Shown one piece after another: positions 1-20,953 of a stretch of 64,000 nt of DNA. The position numbers and the translations under genes were made by a program. This DNA comes from a virus: the IMG/VR virus record IMGVR_UViG_3300046517_002960, positions 62,001 to 126,000 of that record. One strand, given 5' to 3'. Positions within the stretch are counted from its first letter, which is position 1. Every line of letters begins with the position of its first letter. The notes beneath the pieces were generated by a model. That model was not told where the DNA came from, did not search any database, and worked only from the letters and a program-made list of their open reading frames with translations.

Positions 1-706
1 CGGCAGGCTCTACCGCTTCCACCTGAACAGGTTCGGTCATCCCGGCGGTCACCGAGATGTCCTCCCACAGCGCCTCGTAACGCGGCTGGAAGCGCACCGG
101 CTGGAGCGTGCCGAGAATCTGCATGATGTGCCGGACAGATGTAGTCCCGGCCCGGTGGCACCGGGACGTGTTACCCAGTGAATCCGGCCGGAGCGTGTGC
201 ATCAGCCCCAGGTCAGTCATGCCCTTGCAGAACGCGTCCATCACCGGGCCTGGATTCTGGGCGAACTCCAGCTTGCGGGCGGCCCGGACCTGATTCGGCG
301 TGCAGATCTGGAGGTTTGCCTCGCCGTCGTACAGCCCGGCCAGCCAGCCAGCCGTACGAGTGTCAGCTTCCCGCCAGGTCCCGATGGACAGCAGCTCGTC
401 GCCAGGCTGAAGTACGTCAGCCTGCACCCAGGACAGGTACCGGCCGCGCTTGCCGTTGAGCTGCCTGCGCCGGACAAGCCACAGGTGGTCCGCGCTGCAC
501 GTGACAGCCCGGCCGCCGGCCCGCACCAGGACAGACGGCTTGCGCACCATGCTGGCGGCTTCCACGACAGCCGTCCGCATCCGGCGATGCTGATTACCGG
601 GCAGCCGGTTCTCATCGAAAGCCACGAGCCGGTCGCCCACCTGAATCTCCGCGGCTGGCACGTACCGCAGATCGCTTCTGAGCACGGGCGTGTCCGGGGC
701 CAGGCA
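1..706 (-). other. Intein in the polymerase domain (C-terminal end outside window)
   Basis: The polymerase extein reads ...RHHAAGNY and is followed by Cys 1 of CLAPDTPVLRSD, a normal class 1 intein start. Block B is present (AVTCSADHLWLV, with Thr and His). A LAGLIDADG-like segment AGWLAGLYDGEA lies near 330-350, and a block F-like segment VQVEAVEPA at the left edge. 235 residues are visible; the terminal His/Gly-Asn and downstream extein are off the window. The insertion point is the conserved segment after the O-helix where family A polymerases normally read ...N..IQG, a typical intein site. One endonuclease motif is clear; a second was not identified. Confidence 0.85.
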
Positions 707-3700
707 GTAGTTGCCGGCCGCGTGGTGACGGCCGCGGGGCAGCCAGATGGTCCGGCCGGAGTACGCGGTCCAGGCCCGGTTGCCGGATTGCGCGTAGGCC
801 CGCATCTCCTGGTCCCAGGCGGCGTACCGGGGAGCGATCTGCTCGAACGCCCGGTGCACCGCCCGGCCGTGCGCCACTGGCAGCCCGACCTGCTTCGCCC
901 CGGTGTCCGGGCCGCCGCCGAACATCTTACTGAACACGATGCGCTTGGAGTTGTAGCGGTCTTCCTTGCCGGCGTTCCCGCCGAAGGCCATCCGGGCGGC
1001 CATCCAGTGCAGCCCCTTCTGGTCCAGCCCGCAGGCCGGGTGACACGGGTCGTTCCCGCACGCCTGGCAGCGGGTGGACAGCTCGGCCTCCAGCAGCGCG
1101 AAGTCGCCGCTCAGCGCGGCGCCGACCCGGATCTCCACGCCGGAGAAGTCGGCGCTGATCCCGGCCATCGGCACCCCGTACGGGCTGGTCAGCTCGTCGT
1201 CGGCGATGACGCAGGCGCGGATCCCGCCCTGCCGTGAGAATTGTTGCCCGTTGGGTCTCACGCAACTACTGCGACCCGTGTCGGCGTTGATCGTGTAGAC
1301 CACCGGGCGCATCCGGCCGTCGCCGCGTTCGCACAGCGTGTTCAGCGGGTTGAGCAGCAGGCCGAGGGTAGTGACGTCATGCCGGTACTCCAGGATCTGC
1401 CGGCACAGCTCGGAATGCTCGTAGAAGTCCCGGCCGTCCTGGCCGTCCTGCTTGGCCAGCGGCTCGAGCACGTCCTTGGCCGCGGACGGGCCGCCGCTCC
1501 CGGTCCGGCCCAGCGGCACGCCCATCGCGGCCAGCGCGGCCGGGACTTCCTTGGACGAGCTCGGGTTGGCGATGTCCGGGCACAGCTCGGCCACCCGCCG
1601 CCGGGCTGCCTCGCGGGCCTGCTCGTACTCGGCGATCTTGGCCTGGATGTGGCGGTGGTCCAGCCGGAACCCGTCGTGCGCGACCCGGGCGCACATGGCC
1701 TGGAAGACCCGCTCGCGGGCCAGCACGTGCTCGTCCGGGCGGGGCAGCACGCGCAGCACCGCGGCCAGGTCCAGCACGTCGGACCCGGCGTACCGCTCGA
1801 ACGTCTCGCAGTCCTTGCGGACCATGGCCCAGCCGGATTTCTCCCGCGGGGTGCTGGCCTCCAGGTTGGTCAGCCACCGGCCGGACTTGAACAGCGCGCT
1901 GCGCGCCTCGTCGGCCGGCTTGGACGCCGAGTAGCCGCCCAGCAGGCCGAGGGCGAGCCGCTTCAGCTCGTTCTCGTCCGACCCGGCCAGCGACGGGTCG
2001 CCCAGCTTGGAGATCAGCACGGAGTCCTCCATCCGCGCCCACATGGAGTCGCGGTCGCCGAGCCCGTGCCAGGCCAGCGGGACCAGGTCGGCGCAGGCCG
2101 AATGCGCGTGCAGCTTGCCGGCCCGGGCCACCAGGTCCCGGATCGCCGCCGCCTGCGCATCGTCGGAGGGGTCGAAGACCGCGGCGATGTGCTCCCCGCC
2201 CAGCTGGACCAGCCGCAGCTCGTGGTCGGCATGGCTGACCGGGTAGCCGGAGTGCTCCACGTCCACCGACAGGTCCGCCAGGTACGGGGTGACCGCGGCG
2301 ACCGCCTCGGCGATCGTGCACGGCAGCACCATCGGCGGCGCGCCCGGGTCGGCCGGGTTCCGGGCGGTGAGCACCGGCAGCGGGTACACCGGGCCTTCCA
2401 GCGCCGGGTCCGGCCGCAGCGGCTTCGGCTTCGGGGCCTTCGGCTCCCGGGGCTTGCGTTCTGCTCGCTTCCGTTCGGCTGGCTTCCGCTCTGGCTTGTC
2501 CGCTACAGGCTGTGACGGAGCTGCCGGGTCCGCTGCCGGGGGTGCCGCTGCCGGGGATTCCTGAAGGGATTGAGGGTCTGAGGGGTTATTTCTATTTTCC
2601 TGCGTGTGCGTGTGTGCGTGTGCATGCGCATTAGGAATAGAAACCAACCCTTCATACCCTTCAGGAGGAGAAAAACTGAAGGGTTGCTGGATGGTTTGAC
2701 CTGCAGTTTTTCCGTTCTGAAGGGTTTGGGCTACAGGCGGTGCAAACCCTTCAGTACCCTTCATGAACCCTTCAGCAGGACGGGTGGAACCTCCGCTGAT
2801 GCCCATGAACTCGGCCGGAGTCGGCGTGAAGCTGCCTGGCGGGCGCACCCGGAGCGGCCGGTAGTTGCCGTCTGCCCGGTGAACGGCCTCAAACCCCTCA
2901 CTGTTCAGGCGCCGTCCCCAGGCCGTCTCGGACGGGATCTGGGAGGGGTGCATATTCTTCCGGCGGCAACTCTCCGTGAACGCCTCGTAGAGCTGGTGGG
3001 ACTTGGTGCCCGGCTCCCAGGGCTCGCACTCGTCCTCTACCCAGAGCATGACCCGGTCCTGGCTGGCCTGGATTTCCAGTGCCGCCCGCCGGCCGGCCTC
3101 GGGGGCGCTTTCGCTGCCCGCGGACCCCGGCTCGGCCAGCCACCCGGCCGCCTCGGCCATCAGCGCGGCGAGCACGCCGGGGGCCTCGCGCCGCCAGGCC
3201 GGGCCGTTCACGTTCCCGATCGCGGCCCGGGCCGCGCGCACCTGCGCCGGGTCGCCGTCGCACGGGATCAGCCGGACCCGCCGCCGGATCGCCGGGTCCA
3301 CCAGGTTCGGCTCGTGCTCCGGGTTGGCGGTCAGGATCAGCGTGTGGGTCGGGGGGAACGTGACCGGGTTCTCGGCCATCCGGTTGCCGGTCAGGTCGGC
3401 GCCCCCGGTGATCTGCTTGAGCCGTTCGGTGGCCATCGTGCCGGCCCGGGGGGCCTCATCGATGAAGGACAGCCGGCGGCCTTTCAGCGCGTACACGATG
3501 GAGGCGTGCGACCGGTCGGCCGGGGACAGCAGCCGCGCGTCGGCGGTGTGCGCGTACGTGCCGAGCACGCTCATCATCAGGTCGATGACGGACGTCTTGC
3601 CCACGTCGGTCTCGCCCAGCATGATCGGCAGCGCCTTGTCGGAGTACCCGGTAACCGCGATGGCCAGCACCCGCAGCGCCCAGGCCCGCAGCTCCGCGTC

Positions 3701-5347
3701 CGGCCAGACGGCTGCCAGGAACGCGTCCCATAGCGGCGTCTTGCGCTCGCTGTCGGGGGTGACCGCCGCGCTGTGCAGATGCGGCACGCCCCAGTCAATG
3801 CGCCGGGTAGGTTCCGGGCTGCCCGCGAACTCCCGCAGGTCCCACGGCACCCCCCCGGCCCACAGGATCTCCCGGTCGGCATCCAGCCCGGCCAGGTCGA
3901 TCGCCGAGGGATGGAAGCCGACGCCGGTCTGCGCGTTCATCTTCCCGGCGATCCCGGCCGAGGACGCGTTGGTGCAGAACCTGGCCCGCCGTTTGGCCTG
4001 GGCCTTTTCCGGGGTGCCGTCATCGGCGGCCGGGTCGCCGGGCAGCATCAGCCAGCTGACCAGGTCGACGGCCCAGGCGGCGGCGTTGCCCCGGCGCGGC
4101 ACCCAGGCCTCCGGCCCGCGCACCAGCCAGGTGCCGGCGTCGGGGGCGTACCGCAGCGCCGGGTGCACCCGGGTCAGCACGTCCCGGGCCAGGGTGGCGT
4201 CCAGTTCCGCGGCCGTCTCGAACGGGGCGGTGCCGATTGCCTGGTACGGCGTCCAGAGCCGGGCGGGCTCGATCGGCTCGGGCTCCGGCTCGCCCTCGGG
4301 CACGCCCGGGGCCGGGGCCTGGTACTCCTGGCGGGCCGCCGCGTTCACGGTCAGCACGCACGGGTCCCACCCGGCCGGGCGCGGCCCGTGCTCGGTGACC
4401 GCGGACCGGGCGGCGCCCAGCACCATCTCGGCGAACTCGGCCTGGCGGCCCTCCCCGGCGGTCAGGTCGTTCCACAGCTCGTCCAGCGCCCGGATCGCGG
4501 TCAGGTAGCCGGGGTGGCCCTTGGCGCCCAGCATCACCGCGGCCAGGGTGTACTTCAGCATCGCGTCATGCCGCGTGCCCGGCTCGGCCCGGGTCAGGGC
4601 GCGCCGCGCCTCGTCCATCACCGCGGCCATGTCCACGCACCACGGCGCCCCGGCTGCCTCGCTGCCCTCGAGTTCGAGCAGCAGCTGCTGCCCGGCCTCC
4701 GGGGGCGCGTTCGCCCCGGCCGGCTTCGACGCCCCGGCCGCCAGAGCGGTCACCCAGGCGGGCGGCAGCTGCGGCAGCTGGTCCGGCCGCGGGATCTCGC
4801 CCGGGTCCGCCGCCGAGCCGTCCGGCCGGTACCAGGTGTAGGTGCCGTCCACCGCCCCGTCGTCGTCGTGGTGCGGGCTCGGCCAGACCACGGCGTACCG
4901 GTGGTGCAGCTGGATGATCTCGATGTCCGGGTCGATGGTGCCCGCGTACCGCTGCGCCGGCGCCCGGAAGAACCAGATCCGCGACGGCTGGCCCGGCCCC
5001 CGCGCGGTGGAGGACCAGGTCGGCGGCAGCTCGCCCCACTCGGCTGCCCGGGCGGCCAGGGTCTGCGCCCCGTGCTTCTGCTTGCCGTGCTTGACGTACT
5101 GGTCGACGTCGATGCCGATGACGCCGGCCGGCAGCCGCAGCGCGACCGAGCTGCCGGGCCTGCTGCCGATCCAGCCGATCACCGTGCCCGCGTCGGTCCA
5201 GGCCCCGTCCGCCCCGGTGTAGCCCTCCGGCGGCGGGTACTTGCCCTGCGCGGGCACCGGGATGACGCCCGGCCACCCTTTCAGGAGGTAGTCCCCGGCG
5301 TGCTCCGCGTACGGGCGCGCCGAGATGCCGGGCGCCGCCGCCGTCAC
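1..5347 (-). CDS. Primase (AEP) - SF3 helicase - family A DNA polymerase fusion, C-terminus cut by window edge
   Basis: One open frame of at least 1782 codons. Residues 1-230 look like a bifunctional primase/polymerase (AEP) domain, with the metal-binding Asp pair in IGIDVDQY (residues 80-82). An SF3/D5 helicase follows: Walker A GETDVGKTS (Lys 584), Walker B FIDEAP (630-631), then a sensor segment LILTANPEHE. After a low-complexity linker (about 870-990) comes a family A polymerase: 3'-5' exonuclease motif VDVEH (1029-1031), motif A ADFSGVEIR (1400) and O-helix RYNSKRIVFSKMFGG (Lys 1468). An intein starts at residue 1548. I read the frame through the linker and found no stop. The start is taken as GTG 5347, overlapping the TGA of a short leader ORF (GTGA). 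It is probably the phage replisome core. Domain calls are firm; single-polypeptide synthesis is inferred from the open frame. Confidence 0.85.
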   Translation of the reverse strand, partial: MTAAAPGISARPYAEHAGDYLLKGWPGVIPVPAQGKYPPPEGYTGADGAWTDAGTVIGWIGSRPGSSVALRLPAGVIGIDVDQYVKHGKQKHGAQTLAARAAEWGELPPTWSSTARGPGQPSRIWFFRAPAQRYAGTIDPDIEIIQLHHRYAVVWPSPHHDDDGAVDGTYTWYRPDGSAADPGEIPRPDQLPQLPPAWVTALAAGASKPAGANAPPEAGQQLLLELEGSEAAGAPWCVDMAAVMDEARRALTRAEPGTRHDAMLKYTLAAVMLGAKGHPGYLTAIRALDELWNDLTAGEGRQAEFAEMVLGAARSAVTEHGPRPAGWDPCVLTVNAAARQEYQAPAPGVPEGEPEPEPIEPARLWTPYQAIGTAPFETAAELDATLARDVLTRVHPALRYAPDAGTWLVRGPEAWVPRRGNAAAWAVDLVSWLMLPGDPAADDGTPEKAQAKRRARFCTNASSAGIAGKMNAQTGVGFHPSAIDLAGLDADREILWAGGVPWDLREFAGSPEPTRRIDWGVPHLHSAAVTPDSERKTPLWDAFLAAVWPDAELRAWALRVLAIAVTGYSDKALPIMLGETDVGKTSVIDLMMSVLGTYAHTADARLLSPADRSHASIVYALKGRRLSFIDEAPRAGTMATERLKQITGGADLTGNRMAENPVTFPPTHTLILTANPEHEPNLVDPAIRRRVRLIPCDGDPAQVRAARAAIGNVNGPAWRREAPGVLAALMAEAAGWLAEPGSAGSESAPEAGRRAALEIQASQDRVMLWVEDECEPWEPGTKSHQLYEAFTESCRRKNMHPSQIPSETAWGRRLNSEGFEAVHRADGNYRPLRVRPPGSFTPTPAEFMGISGGSTRPAEGFMKGTEGFAPPVAQTLQNGKTAGQTIQQPFSFSPPEGYEGLVSIPNAHAHAHTHTQENRNNPSDPQSLQESPAAAPPAADPAAPSQPVADKPERKPAERKRAERKPREPKAPKPKPLRPDPALEGPVYPLPVLTARNPADPGAPPMVLPCTIAEAVAAVTPYLADLSVDVEHSGYPVSHADHELRLVQLGGEHIAAVFDPSDDAQAAAIRDLVARAGKLHAHSACADLVPLAWHGLGDRDSMWARMEDSVLISKLGDPSLAGSDENELKRLALGLLGGYSASKPADEARSALFKSGRWLTNLEASTPREKSGWAMVRKDCETFERYAGSDVLDLAAVLRVLPRPDEHVLARERVFQAMCARVAHDGFRLDHRHIQAKIAEYEQAREAARRRVAELCPDIANPSSSKEVPAALAAMGVPLGRTGSGGPSAAKDVLEPLAKQDGQDGRDFYEHSELCRQILEYRHDVTTLGLLLNPLNTLCERGDGRMRPVVYTINADTGRSSCVRPNGQQFSRQGGIRACVIADDELTSPYGVPMAGISADFSGVEIRVGAALSGDFALLEAELSTRCQACGNDPCHPACGLDQKGLHWMAARMAFGGNAGKEDRYNSKRIVFSKMFGGGPDTGAKQVGLPVAHGRAVHRAFEQIAPRYAAWDQEMRAYAQSGNRAWTAYSGRTIWLPRGRHHAAGNYCLAPDTPVLRSDLRYVPAAEIQVGDRLVAFDENRLPGNQHRRMRTAVVEAASMVRKPSVLVRAGGRAVTCSADHLWLVRRRQLNGKRGRYLSWVQADVLQPGDELLSIGTWREADTRTAGWLAGLYDGEANLQICTPNQVRAARKLEFAQNPGPVMDAFCKGMTDLGLMHTLRPDSLGNTSRCHRAGTTSVRHIMQILGTLQPVRFQPRYEALWEDISVTAGMTEPVQVEAVEPA

Positions 5348-9573: not shown

Positions 9574-12500
9574 TCAGTCCAGCCCCCCGAGCAGCATCCG
9601 GACATATCTGGGGTCCTTGTACAGCTGGCCCGCCTGGCCCGCCTTGTCTTTCAGCACCTCGCGACGGTACTGGTCGACCGTGTCCAGCGTGACGAAGTCC
9701 ACGATCTCCACGTGGTCCCACTTCTCGGCGCCGATCCGGTGCACCCGGTCCTCGGGCTGGATGGCCAGGTCCAGCTGGTAGGACCGCTGCAGCATGGCCG
9801 CGCTGTTGCTCGCGGTCAGGGTGATGCCGAGCCCGCCGGCGCCGAGCGTGCAGATGATAACGTCCAGCTTGCCCGCCTGGAAGTCCTCGACTGCGGCCTG
9901 CCGGGTCTTCTTGGTGACCCGCACGCCGGGCTCGCCGTACTCGCCGGAATTGCCCTCGCCGACGACGTAGCCGGTGCGCAGCCCGGCTTTGGCGCAGTAC
10001 TGCCCGGTGATCATGGCCAGCTGCCGGGACTCGGCGAACACCGCGGTGGGCTGGTCCGGCCGCTCGGCCAGCAGGTCCAGCAGCGCCTCGGCCTTCCAGC
10101 ACGGCGGCTTGAGGGTGACTGTGTAGTGCGGCTTGAGCAGCCCGGTGGCCTCGTCCAGCCGGTAGTCGACGGCGACGTCGGCGGCGCTCGACGCGAGCTG
10201 GGACAGCCGGGTCAGCTTCTCGATCGTGTACATGACCGGGAGCTCGCCGCCGTCCGGGAGCTCGGCCAGCATCTGATCGCGCATGGTGTCGTACGCGTGC
10301 CGCCAGGCCGGGGGCATCTCCGGGCGGCGCAGCGAGTAGATCTTGTCCGGCAGGAACGCCAGCACGTCGGCCTTGGCGACCCGGCGCAGCTGCCCGGCCA
10401 GCGCGGCGAAGAACTCGGCTTCCATCTCCGGGCGCAGGCCCAGGATCAGCTCGTCGTAGTCCCCGTTGCCGCGCCGGGTGGCCAGGTACCGCCGTTTCAG
10501 GTCTTCCTTGGACGGCCAGTCCAGCGGCGCCATGGTGAACAGCGGCTGGTAGATGTCGCCGAAGTCGTGGGTGACCAGCGTGCCCGACGCCCAGACCAGG
10601 GTCGCCGCGTAGTGCGCGACCCGCCACAGCGCTTTAGACTGCTTGGCCTTCGGGTTGCGGCCCAGGTGAGATTCGTCGGCGATGACGCAGGCGGCCCGGA
10701 TCTTCACCAGCAGGCCGCGCATGTCCGGGGCGTCCCGGCGCATCGTGGCGTAGGTGGTGATCAGGATGTACCGGCCGTGCTTCCAGCTGGCGATCCTGGC
10801 CCGCTTCGCCCCGCGGTGCAGGACCGGCTCCGGCCAGTGCGGCATCAGCTCGCGGATATGGTCCTGCCAGACGCGGGCTACCTCCCACGACGGCACGACG
10901 ATGACCATCGGGAAGACGTCGGTGCCGGCCAGGCGGCGGGCCTCGATGCCGAGCAGCGTCGACGCGGTGTTATGCGTCACCGCGAACCGGTCTGTAACGT
11001 ACAGGCGGGACGGGTGATCAATAGCGATGCACTGCATCGGCTTCCGGCCGGCGAACTCTGCTGAGACGAGTGACCGGGCCGGCTGGCGCGTGCTGTGCCT
11101 GTTTTTCCACAAGCAGGTCTTCCGGGACAGCCGGAACGGGGACAGCGGCTGTGGCAGGTTCACCGTGACCGTGTACCGCTCCCGGCCCAGCTGGAATCTT
11201 GCCGCCAGGTGCCCGGTGCCGCCCAGAGATTCGGCCAGCCACCGCACGTCCTCGGCCAGCTGCCGGCTGGATGAGCCGAACTGCGCGGTTCCGTCACGGC
11301 TCAGAACCCATCCATCGGTATCCATCAGTCCCTGCAGGACAGCAAGGCGGCAGCTGGCCGGGCTCATCTTGTAGGCGTCCGGGACGAACTTCGTCAGGCT
11401 TGAGCATCCACGCAGGCCCAGATCGGCCAGCGGGCCGGCAACCGGATGACACCTTTTTCCTGCTATCGGGAACCGGCTCCGGGTATCGTCCTTAACAGCT
11501 GCCTGGTAACAGCGCCCGCACAACCCTCGTGCGATGGCGATCCGCCCGCATGCGCAGATCCGGCCGTTCGCGGAACCGAGCGTGCTAACCAGCCGGTAGT
11601 CGTACTTTTTGCCCGGCTCTTTCTTCACGATGATACCGGGAGGAACTAGAGACTCGATGGACGCGACAATCTCGGCGTCAGCCGTTGACACCCGGGTTGA
11701 CCTGGTCGTGAACCCGCCGTCACCCAGCAGCAGGCCGAGCAGGTACGGGTCCAGCTCGCGTTTCGCGCCGCACTCAAGATCGGGGGCCGTGATCATCGGG
11801 ACGTACCACTTCGCACGGTCACTGTCACCGTTCGGAGCCCGGAGCCCGGCATCAATGAGATCCCGTAGCGTCCGGGTCTGCCAGTAATAGGGAAGCCGCT
11901 CACCGGTTGTCTTCGAGAGCATGCGGCGGTGCCTGCTTACCCGCCAGAGATGCTGGTCATTGCATTCAGCTGATGAGCCGTCGCTGAAGATGACTTCGTA
12001 GCAGTCTTGTTCTCCCTGCGGGAACACGCCGGTAACCCGGGATGGCGTGCCGTCTCCGGCGATCACCAGGTCGCCCGTGCGAATCTCGCCCATAGCCCGG
12101 AATCCGCTCGGGGTCAGCACTTGTGCGTCCAGTGGCTGTGCTTTCCCGGTGCCCGGCTCATCGCCCAGGAGGTACTTCCCGGCTGACGCGATCGCGGCGG
12201 CGCCGTCCAGCTGGTGCGGGTAGGGCGTGAACGACTCCGGCCAGCACCGCGGGATGGCGGGCGGTGGCGAGGTGCGGCGGATCGTCTCGGCGATGATCCA
12301 CTCGGTCAGCTTCGGCCAGGGCTTCCAGACCGTATGGCCGTCGTGGTTGTAGATGAACCCGAGCTGGACGATGGTGGCCCAGCTCAGCGGGTAGTACCGG
12401 GCGCCGGTCGGCTGGCCGTTCTCGTCCAGTGCCGATTCCCCGGCCGCCGTCAGCAGGTGCAGCCGCTCGGCGATGTTCTTCTTGTCATGCGCGGAGCCGG

Positions 12501-12675
12501 TGGCCCACAGCACCATGTGCCGGCCGTCCGCCGTCATCTCGCCGCGCAGGGCGCCATCGCCATAATAACCGTTCCGCGGCGGCTCGCGGTACGCCGGGAG
12601 CCGGTACGGGCCGGGCTGCTCCGGCGCCAGGAACATGGCCACGGCGTCGTGTGCCGCTGCTTCGGCGAGATTCAT
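9574..12675 (-). CDS. SNF2/DEAD-type helicase interrupted by a class 3 intein
   Basis: 1033 codons; 642 residues remain after intein removal. Walker A GDEPGTGK (to Lys 178) is split from its Thr by the intein. After the intein come a DEAD-like box ADESH, motif III-like ASGT, the C-terminal RecA lobe and motif VI QPEDRVHRIG, the usual SNF2/RapA pattern. ATG 12675 (MNLAEAAAHD) is chosen over the longer open frame because the upstream part is a shadow of the next gene. Likely a replication, repair or recombination translocase acting with the neighbouring exonuclease and resolvase. Confidence 0.88.
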   Translation of the reverse strand: MNLAEAAAHDAVAMFLAPEQPGPYRLPAYREPPRNGYYGDGALRGEMTADGRHMVLWATGSAHDKKNIAERLHLLTAAGESALDENGQPTGARYYPLSWATIVQLGFIYNHDGHTVWKPWPKLTEWIIAETIRRTSPPPAIPRCWPESFTPYPHQLDGAAAIASAGKYLLGDEPGTGKAQPLDAQVLTPSGFRAMGEIRTGDLVIAGDGTPSRVTGVFPQGEQDCYEVIFSDGSSAECNDQHLWRVSRHRRMLSKTTGERLPYYWQTRTLRDLIDAGLRAPNGDSDRAKWYVPMITAPDLECGAKRELDPYLLGLLLGDGGFTTRSTRVSTADAEIVASIESLVPPGIIVKKEPGKKYDYRLVSTLGSANGRICACGRIAIARGLCGRCYQAAVKDDTRSRFPIAGKRCHPVAGPLADLGLRGCSSLTKFVPDAYKMSPASCRLAVLQGLMDTDGWVLSRDGTAQFGSSSRQLAEDVRWLAESLGGTGHLAARFQLGRERYTVTVNLPQPLSPFRLSRKTCLWKNRHSTRQPARSLVSAEFAGRKPMQCIAIDHPSRLYVTDRFAVTHNTASTLLGIEARRLAGTDVFPMVIVVPSWEVARVWQDHIRELMPHWPEPVLHRGAKRARIASWKHGRYILITTYATMRRDAPDMRGLLVKIRAACVIADESHLGRNPKAKQSKALWRVAHYAATLVWASGTLVTHDFGDIYQPLFTMAPLDWPSKEDLKRRYLATRRGNGDYDELILGLRPEMEAEFFAALAGQLRRVAKADVLAFLPDKIYSLRRPEMPPAWRHAYDTMRDQMLAELPDGGELPVMYTIEKLTRLSQLASSAADVAVDYRLDEATGLLKPHYTVTLKPPCWKAEALLDLLAERPDQPTAVFAESRQLAMITGQYCAKAGLRTGYVVGEGNSGEYGEPGVRVTKKTRQAAVEDFQAGKLDVIICTLGAGGLGITLTASNSAAMLQRSYQLDLAIQPEDRVHRIGAEKWDHVEIVDFVTLDTVDQYRREVLKDKAGQAGQLYKDPRYVRMLLGGLD
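10969..12141 (-). other. Class 3 intein with LAGLIDADG endonuclease in Walker A of the SNF2 helicase
   Basis: 391 residues between GTGK and Thr of the P-loop. The first residue is Ala (AQPLDAQVL), the last are VTHN, and the +1 extein residue is Thr. It has the class 3 W-C-T signature: Trp 66 in the block B region (DQHLW), Cys 371 in block F (MQCIAID) and Thr 389 in block G. Two LAGLIDADG motifs are seen, LLGLLLGDGGF (134-144) and LQGLMDTDGWV (269-279), with a four-Cys cluster between them. Class 3 inteins splice without an N-terminal nucleophile by using the block F Cys. Confidence 0.9.
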
Positions 12676-12695
12676 GCCGGGGTACCTTCTGCCGT

Positions 12696-12968
12696 CTACT
12701 GCGCCTGGGGGTCCGTGCCGGGCGCGAACGCGGTGCCGCGCAGGTGCCAGCGCTCGCACATCGGGGTGCCGGTCAGCGGCTTGCCGTCCAGCCCGGACGG
12801 GGCCGTGGCGGCAGTTGCCCGGCCGGCCTGCCGGATCACGCCTCCGCGGGGGACCGCGCCGTCCGCGTGGCAGGGGCGGGCGCAGCCGCAGTGGCCCTCG
12901 CGGGCCAGGGTGTCCTCGGCGTTGGCGCGGATCCCGCAGTGAGCACCACATTCGAGGGTCAGGGCCAC
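12696..12968 (-). CDS. Small Cys/His-rich protein
   Basis: 90 residues from GTG 12968 after GGGAGG. The N-terminal half contains Cys and His clusters (ECGAHCG, GHCGCARPCH), suggesting zinc binding; the second half is Gly/Pro-rich. It sits 20 nt upstream of the helicase start, so it is probably co-transcribed. No family recognised. Confidence 0.6.
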   Translation of the reverse strand: MALTLECGAHCGIRANAEDTLAREGHCGCARPCHADGAVPRGGVIRQAGRATAATAPSGLDGKPLTGTPMCERWHLRGTAFAPGTDPQAQ

Positions 12969-20290: not shown

Positions 20291-20953
20291 ATGAGCACCA
20301 TGACGGAGGCGCGGCCAGCCAGGCCGGCCCGTACCGACATCCGCCGGCCGGCGTCGGGGATCGTCATCGACCCGGCCGGCCTGACCTGGTGGCGGGATCG
20401 CCGCGCGATGTCCCGCCAGGACCTGTCCGACATGATCACTGTGCTGTGGCTGGACGGCCACCCGGACGCGCTGGCGTTCTGGCACGCCGCCGGGCCGCCC
20501 GGTGACGGGCATGCCGCCGCGCCGCCGCGCCCGGTTCCGGGCAGCACGGCCGATCCCCGGGTCTGCACGGTGTGCGGCGCCAAGATCAAGGGCGGCCTGA
20601 CCCGCGACGGGATCGCCAAGATAGAGCACCCCGATCCCGCCCGCGGCAGGCGGCCGAAAGCCCGCACCCTGCGGGCGCTGTGCGCGGCGCTGAGCACCAG
20701 TGACGAACCGGTCCTGCCCAGGCACCTGCAGCCAGGCGGGCCTGAGCTGCCGCTGTCCGCCGCCGCCCAGGACCGGCAGGCCCGCAAGTACTACAACGAC
20801 GCCATGGTCGGTTTCGCGGACGCGCTGGGCCGGCCGGAACTTTACACCAACAGCGCGGGCCGGCGGTATTACAGTAAGGAACTGCGCGAGATGTACGAGC
20901 AGTACCTGGCGCAGACCCGGGCCGGGACAGGCAGCACGGCCCGCGTGGCGTAG
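20291..20953 (+). CDS. XRE-like DNA-binding protein with HTH split by a Cys-containing insertion
   Basis: 220 residues. LTWWRDRRAMSRQDLSDMI (31-49) reads as the first two helices of an XRE/HTH_3 domain, and LTRDGIAKIEHPDPARG...TLRALCAALS (103-135) as its recognition and closing helices. About 50 residues, including CTVC (92-95), separate them. A C-terminal helical domain (ARKYYNDAMVGFADALG) may be for oligomerisation. Likely a transcriptional regulator. The split HTH is inferred from pattern, and an alternative fold is possible. Confidence 0.5.
   Translation: MSTMTEARPARPARTDIRRPASGIVIDPAGLTWWRDRRAMSRQDLSDMITVLWLDGHPDALAFWHAAGPPGDGHAAAPPRPVPGSTADPRVCTVCGAKIKGGLTRDGIAKIEHPDPARGRRPKARTLRALCAALSTSDEPVLPRHLQPGGPELPLSAAAQDRQARKYYNDAMVGFADALGRPELYTNSAGRRYYSKELREMYEQYLAQTRAGTGSTARVA

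Follow-up and report, generated by a model that had tools for sequence, protein, structure and literature searches.

A fused viral primase-helicase-polymerase gene that probably carries a replication origin within its own coding sequence

Can one phage gene hold the enzymes of DNA replication together with the origin at which they would start? The question is raised by a stretch of 64,000 nucleotides, hereafter the window, which corresponds to bases 62001-126000 of the 190,216-bp virus record IMGVR_UViG_3300046517_002960. A minus-strand open reading frame (ORF) at positions 1-5347 was open throughout and truncated by the window edge; the complete gene (G000:C1:61681-67347) begins with a GTG start and encodes 1888 residues. 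The initial annotation had described one continuous ORF with AEP primase, SF3 helicase, exonuclease and family A DNA polymerase (PolA) domains, which was confirmed with the qualification that the gene runs past the window edge. The domain order is AEP primase, SF3 helicase, winged helix, linker, 3'-5' exonuclease and family A polymerase. We consider it likely, with a probability of roughly 80%, that this is a one-gene replication module whose origin lies in the linker DNA between the winged helix and the exonuclease.

The AEP primase domain (4358-5317, minus strand; approximately residues 11-330) carries the DxD motif D80/D82 within a GIDVD sequence that was conserved in the motif alignment, placing the domain among the AEPs. 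A match to phrog_1156 (AEP primase plus SF3) spans residues 9-824 (E=2.8e-102). The Pfam Prim-Pol model recognized 27 of 28 aligned homologues, and the AEP of the window copy was below recognition. Since no useful match was obtained when the AEP profile was compared with PDB sequences, fold comparison was used in its place; the best PDB match of the AlphaFold2 model (pLDDT 91) was the pRN1 primase-polymerase 3m1m. In the SF3 helicase domain (3128-4195, minus strand; residues 385-740; Walker A GETDVGKTS), DUF5906 was above cut-off and the SF3 motifs aligned, while TIGR01613 matched below cut-off; the nearest PDB structures to its model (pLDDT 93) were African swine fever virus C962R and poxvirus D5. 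The C-terminal winged-helix domain (2834-3127, minus strand; residues 741-838), which is proposed to bind iterons, was modeled with a pLDDT of 93 as a recognition helix followed by a beta-hairpin. The 3'-5' exonuclease domain (1718-2284, minus strand; residues 1022-1210) has the motifs DVE, AD and YAGSD, and a phrog_17 match (exonuclease plus family A polymerase) spans residues 1065-1548 (E=1.2e-45). The polymerase part preceding an intein (707-1717, minus strand) contains motif A (DFSGVEIR) and motif B (RYNSKRIVF), and Pfam DNA_pol_A (PF00476) was above cut-off in the fused protein (E=1.7e-18). That each domain has its motifs, as originally annotated, was true of AEP, SF3, exonuclease and motifs A and B; motif C (IHDEV), however, lies beyond the window, after the intein, which had gone unnoticed. 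With motifs A, B and C and the acidic residues of the exonuclease all found, the protein is identified by motif, profile and predicted fold as an AEP primase, an SF3 helicase of the D5/C962R type and a family A polymerase with 3'-5' exonuclease.

The fusion is shared by a family. Relatives 42-62% identical to the window protein are encoded in one ORF likewise and keep the junction, including L004 (60% identical, 1595 residues), which has a single ORF as well and no intein. The fused gene was the starting point of a clade survey, biased in its proportions accordingly, in which viral contigs and bacterial genomes were scanned; 60 of 86 distinct clade polymerase genes were in one ORF with primase/helicase modules: 55 with SF3 in the same ORF, one with AEP and a different SF3, and four that were long with other N-terminal parts. 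The remainder were 18 short ORFs and 8 truncated by a contig or locus edge. The fusion is carried by phages whose hosts are high in GC and mostly actinobacterial; the genome records name Nocardioides, Micromonospora, Labedaea and Jatrophihabitans as hosts. In 0 of 50,697 phage records and none of 72,556 plasmids did a single place cover at least 80% of the fused protein, in line with the rarity first supposed. All 50 in-frame linkers were open, with 0 stops in 9,849 codons, whereas the other frames of the same linkers contained 153-302 stops each and were open in at most 2; as the 50 linkers came from genes picked as fused, the informative part is the contrast with the other frames. A missed stop or sequencing error in the linker, which the initial annotation had named as grounds for rejecting the fusion, is excluded by the open linkers of approximately 50 homologues. 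Taken together, the sequences indicate that the fusion is a real, old and diversified family, neither chance nor error. Neither an AEP-SF3-PolA fusion nor an origin within such a gene was found in the open-licence papers that were searched.

Two variant arrangements were seen beside these genes. The fused gene of a 210-kb contig (L013:6904-11852) changes frame between its exonuclease and polymerase parts and is thereby interrupted, through either a real frameshift or a sequence error. On two contigs of approximately 120 kb (L130:1-7281 and L133:1137-7188), the helicase-exonuclease ORF is located approximately 1.7-2.6 kb from the polymerase ORF, the gap being perhaps an inserted element.

What does the linker DNA contain? 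The linker (2285-2833, minus strand; residues 839-1021), coding and at the same time the proposed origin, shows a dip in GC content to approximately 50%, vs. approximately 72%. It holds 7 copies of the iteron ACCCTTCA on both strands and in several frames, at 2767-2774, 2756-2763, 2746-2753, 2656-2663 and 2647-2654 on the plus strand and at 2718-2725 and 2677-2684 on the minus strand, where the plus strand reads TGAAGGGT; the order in gene sense is ---++--. All 7 copies in the 190-kb record fall within 128 bp of the linker, with approximately 3.6 expected record-wide by composition, so that short identical repeats are clustered at one unique place, as in iteron origins. Two degenerate iterons, ATCCCTTCAG and AACCCCTCAG, occupy 2561-2587 (minus strand), where L004 has its final conserved ++ pair. 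In the L004 linker a different iteron, ACCCTCCA, is repeated 9 times at the matching position, in the order ---++--++. In 31 of the 50 fused genes, the linker contains at least 5 identical ACCCNNCA iterons (ACCC-NN-CA units), and in all but one of those 31 there are none elsewhere in the gene; in 7 further fused genes another unit (e.g., AACCCGCCTG, AACTGTCCTG, ATCCGTCAC) is present 6-14 times. The iteron is homogeneous per gene, usually ACCC-N1N2-CA, and differs between relatives, among which the order of orientations is conserved. Within any one fused gene that has iterons, these are spread over 3-6 phases of frame and strand.

An alternating purine-pyrimidine tract of 31 nt (2601-2631, minus strand), translated as HAHAHTHT, is a candidate strand-opening or primer-start element in the window. 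In relatives the tract is 17-47 nt long and, in most tract-bearing genes, begins approximately 21-30 nt past the start of the last -- iteron, ahead of the ++ pair. The longest such tract of the linker exceeded all those in equal-length pieces of the remaining gene in 26 of 50 cases. A GC-poor, probably easily opened region adjoins the repeats, and the linker strand also folds far better than its shuffles (z=-6.8), a strong foldback. The linker had been taken at the protein level for the usual end of a primase; what was found instead is an iteron array and a purine-pyrimidine tract in frame, the peptides "EGF/EGY" and "NPSDPQ" being iterons translated in one or the other direction. Judged by these features, the linker is a DNA element translated in frame, with an anatomy common to most relatives.

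Which part of the protein would recognize the iterons? With iterons typed by at least 3 identical units, the columns of helicase and winged helix most informative on iteron type (GT vs. TC) were reference residues 828 and 823. Asn828 (codon 2864-2866, minus strand), which covaries with iteron base N1, was present in 13 of 17 genes with N1=T and in 0 of 18 with N1=G; His823 (codon 2879-2881, minus strand), which covaries with N2, was present in 17 of 19 genes with N2=T and in 0 of 15 with N2=C. The TT and GC types had been left out when the columns were picked; as expected, Asn and His occurred together in TT, and neither in GC. On a tree made without the winged helix, phylogenetically independent pairs for the two residue-base pairings were 6.1 same/0 opposite and 5.9 same/0 opposite. 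In a tree-aware scan of approximately 800 residue tests per base, residue 828 ranked first for N1 and 823 for N2, and no other column exceeded 3.7. All 7 genes looked at later (L057, L183, L241, L196, L136, L244 and L250) fitted the code. In the AlphaFold2 model, the wing hairpin is formed by strands 438-440 and 443-450 (model numbering), which carry residues 823 and 828. By its covariation at residues 823 and 828, the protein is the putative cognate initiator, of matching specificity. The sequences themselves show that the genes are fused and stay so in relatives, that an iteron array sits in the linker, and that bases and residues covary. The winged helix very probably binds the iterons within its own gene, which makes the linker very probably the replication origin of the phage, recognized by the DNA-binding domain of the same protein.

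Parallels with the tested systems pRN1, lambda-type phages and GP55 lead us to infer that the iterons are bound, that the DNA is melted and primed, that the linker serves as the origin and that the protein acts without being cleaved. In the window copy the intein would splice out first, restoring the polymerase active site. The winged helix would bind the iterons, wing residues 828 and 823 reading N1 and N2, respectively; SF3 rings would assemble or load and melt the GC-poor or purine-pyrimidine region; the AEP domain would lay down the first primers, and the tethered PolA would extend them with proofreading. A wider proposal, which we favor only slightly over its negation, is a self-contained single-gene replicon in which initiator, primase, helicase, proofreading polymerase and in-frame origin are co-inherited and a two-residue/two-base address code separates the replication identities of related phages.

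Several observations weigh against an origin in the linker. Approximately a dozen fused genes (e.g., L109, L110, L130, L132 and L133) are without clear iterons, as is L019, which has another SF3 type. In cultured phages whose two genes are separate but adjacent (Percival, Rowa and AbbeyMikolon), the same criterion detected no such iterons where primase and polymerase genes meet. The GC skew of the whole 190-kb record has no turning point at the linker and is uninformative. Sign tests on the covariation gave p of approximately 0.03 each, limited by 7-9 independent changes. The code is also imperfect: the TC members L074 and L111 are without Asn828, two TG genes (L088 and L092) are further exceptions, and an extension of the two-base code to AACTGTCC-type iterons failed, as those iterons do not obey it.

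The iterons could instead be operators through which the winged helix represses transcription or translation of its own gene, the origin being elsewhere. Such autoregulation would agree with the covariation, which denotes specific recognition and is silent on purpose, and with the uninformative GC skew. However, the sites are approximately 2.5 kb inside the gene, away from any promoter position; the iterons, GC dip, purine-pyrimidine tract and foldback match the layout of the tested pRN1 origin, and so does the position just 3' of the AEP-SF3-winged-helix unit (PMC4234260). Split relatives, moreover, place iterons between primase and polA. We regard the operator explanation as unlikely. A low-complexity linker with a poorly conserved protein sequence might also be a mere proline-rich flexible spacer, in which the repeats are protein-level or low-complexity drift with no role as DNA. 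Copies on both strands in 3-6 phases exclude a protein repeat, and that reading was rejected; the order of orientations is kept, and the unit is uniform per gene, yet switches between phages alongside two residues of another domain. A spacer without a DNA role is accordingly very improbable.

Other alternatives concern the ORF rather than the origin. Merging of two genes by sequencing or assembly error has next to no probability: nothing was found in its favor except the frame break of L013 between exonuclease and polymerase, and it was rejected because the fusion recurs in assemblies made independently and in bacterial genomes, and because all 50 linkers, fused by selection as they are, lack stops in frame, the other frames being open in at most 2. 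A single ORF could still yield separate working proteins if the linker were cleaved by a protease or if translation also began internally, ahead of the exonuclease, and a long, low-complexity linker and the presence of internal start codons would suit this. Against it, approximately 200 codons are kept in frame in every member, which would be needless if PolA had its own start. We consider separate products possible but doubtful, and they are compatible with the origin model either way. An origin within the linker remains the reading we prefer.

How might the fusion have arisen? In two contigs of 163 and 181 kb (L234 and L238), iterons begin within approximately 6 bp of the primase stop; they lie in a spacer of approximately 200 bp, beyond which is a polA gene that stands by itself and belongs to the clade. 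Because these contigs carry iterons between separate primase and polA genes, we propose that an origin-bearing spacer between the primase-helicase and polA genes became readable in frame, giving the fusion. The early suggestion that the linker was once a post-primase region whose stop was lost gains from this arrangement, although the event is family-wide and not a one-off read-through. Close relatives with separate proteins would, by the initial annotation, have spoken against the fusion; those 42-62% identical are fused, and it is distant ones whose genes are separate, with iterons between. Modules have also been exchanged at this joint. In L136:6905-11536 and L058:4792-9564, the AEP-SF3-winged-helix part is joined to a different PolA, with iterons in L136; in L104, L117, L099 and L019, the exonuclease-polymerase of the clade is joined to other primase/helicase types, including RecA-type AAA_25 and DUF3854; and the linkers of L104, L117 and L082 contain iterons of their own. 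Clusters of identical 8-mers (approximately 5-11 copies) were also seen at or just past the 3' end of free AEP primase genes (L020, L034, L035, L142, L150 and L153), so that origins may commonly lie 3' of genes for AEP primases.

The polymerase part of the window copy is interrupted by an intein of 259 residues (1548-1806; CLAPDTPV...FLSHN/C), which accounts for the final 706 nt of gene sequence within the window (positions 1-706, minus strand) and continues to window position -70. It directly precedes a CIQGTAREL stretch, and the nearest relative is gapped exactly at its position (NY/.../xIQG). Its first residue is Cys, its C-terminal splice site is HN/C, and it is similar to NF038136. The Pfam intein model gave no match to it, and the assignment rests on the junctions and the NF038136 similarity; the insertion and splice-site residues identify residues 1548-1806 as an intein with putative splicing. 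Intein-like insertions were observed at three different polymerase active-site motifs in three members, namely the window copy (1-706, minus strand), L006:11273-12367 and L012:10985-11749, the last of which includes an HNH endonuclease (Pfam). Elsewhere in the window, the ORF at 9574-12951 (minus strand; 1125 residues) has a P-loop ATPase region at its N terminus, together with an SNF2-type helicase and, at residues 534-584, a LAGLIDADG stretch; it probably contains a second intein, in a replication/recombination gene. A tRNA-Leu (cag) gene is located at 20686-20777 (minus strand). Downstream of the replicase gene, beyond the window, are a Dda/RecD-like helicase gene (L002:11125-12423) and a small gene (L002:12970-13485) that matches a PHROG family named cysteine dioxygenase.

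Multi-enzyme phage replicases are only starting to be described, and for phages that use AEP-SF3 primases only a small number of origins have been mapped. In this gene an origin would be legible from sequence, along with a candidate recognition code predicting the fit of initiator and origin, so that origin choice, incompatibility of related phages and the evolution of new replicons become directly testable. The gene would also be an example of a fusion fixed across a functional DNA element.

The likeness first proposed was to PREX of apicomplexan plastids, an organellar protein whose single chain comprises a primase, a helicase and a family A polymerase. PREX has a Twinkle/T7-like helicase and a TOPRIM primase, and is not known to have an origin inside its gene; it stands as an analogy only, and among tested proteins the nearest analogue is GP55 of phage 1706. 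ORF904 of the Sulfolobus plasmid pRN1 is alike in its AEP primase, SF3 helicase and C-terminal winged helix, and is the nearest solved structure to the AEP domain; its origin was mapped experimentally directly downstream, just 3' of the gene (PMC4234260). It differs in having no fused polymerase, and its origin is a non-coding stem-loop without iterons. In lambda, the helicase, primase and polymerase are separate or supplied by the host. Lambda-type phages are alike in that the origin iterons are inside the coding sequence of O, the initiator that binds them (PMC7466680). Lambda O differs in being an initiator only, and homology to the fused replicase was neither found nor is claimed. Alpha of phage P4 unites primase, helicase and an origin-repeat-binding winged helix in one protein, but the primase is of the TOPRIM type, there is no fused polymerase, and the part of the source concerning P4 does not describe the origin as in-gene (PMC4234260). 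In PLE RepA, the initiator DNA-binding domain and the iterons covary and only matching pairs replicate; unlike the present case, whole domains are swapped, the origin is intergenic and no enzymes are fused (PMC8263062). Assignment of the window gene to the GP55 type was rejected, as its polymerase is of family A. GP55 has a family B polymerase in the order helicase-primase-PolB, and neither iterons nor an in-gene origin were reported for it in PMC12205980. As a four-in-one replicase of a lactococcal phage, with activities shown in vitro, GP55 nevertheless comes closest to the fused replicase: a single polypeptide there performs as helicase, primase, exonuclease and polymerase (PMC12205980).

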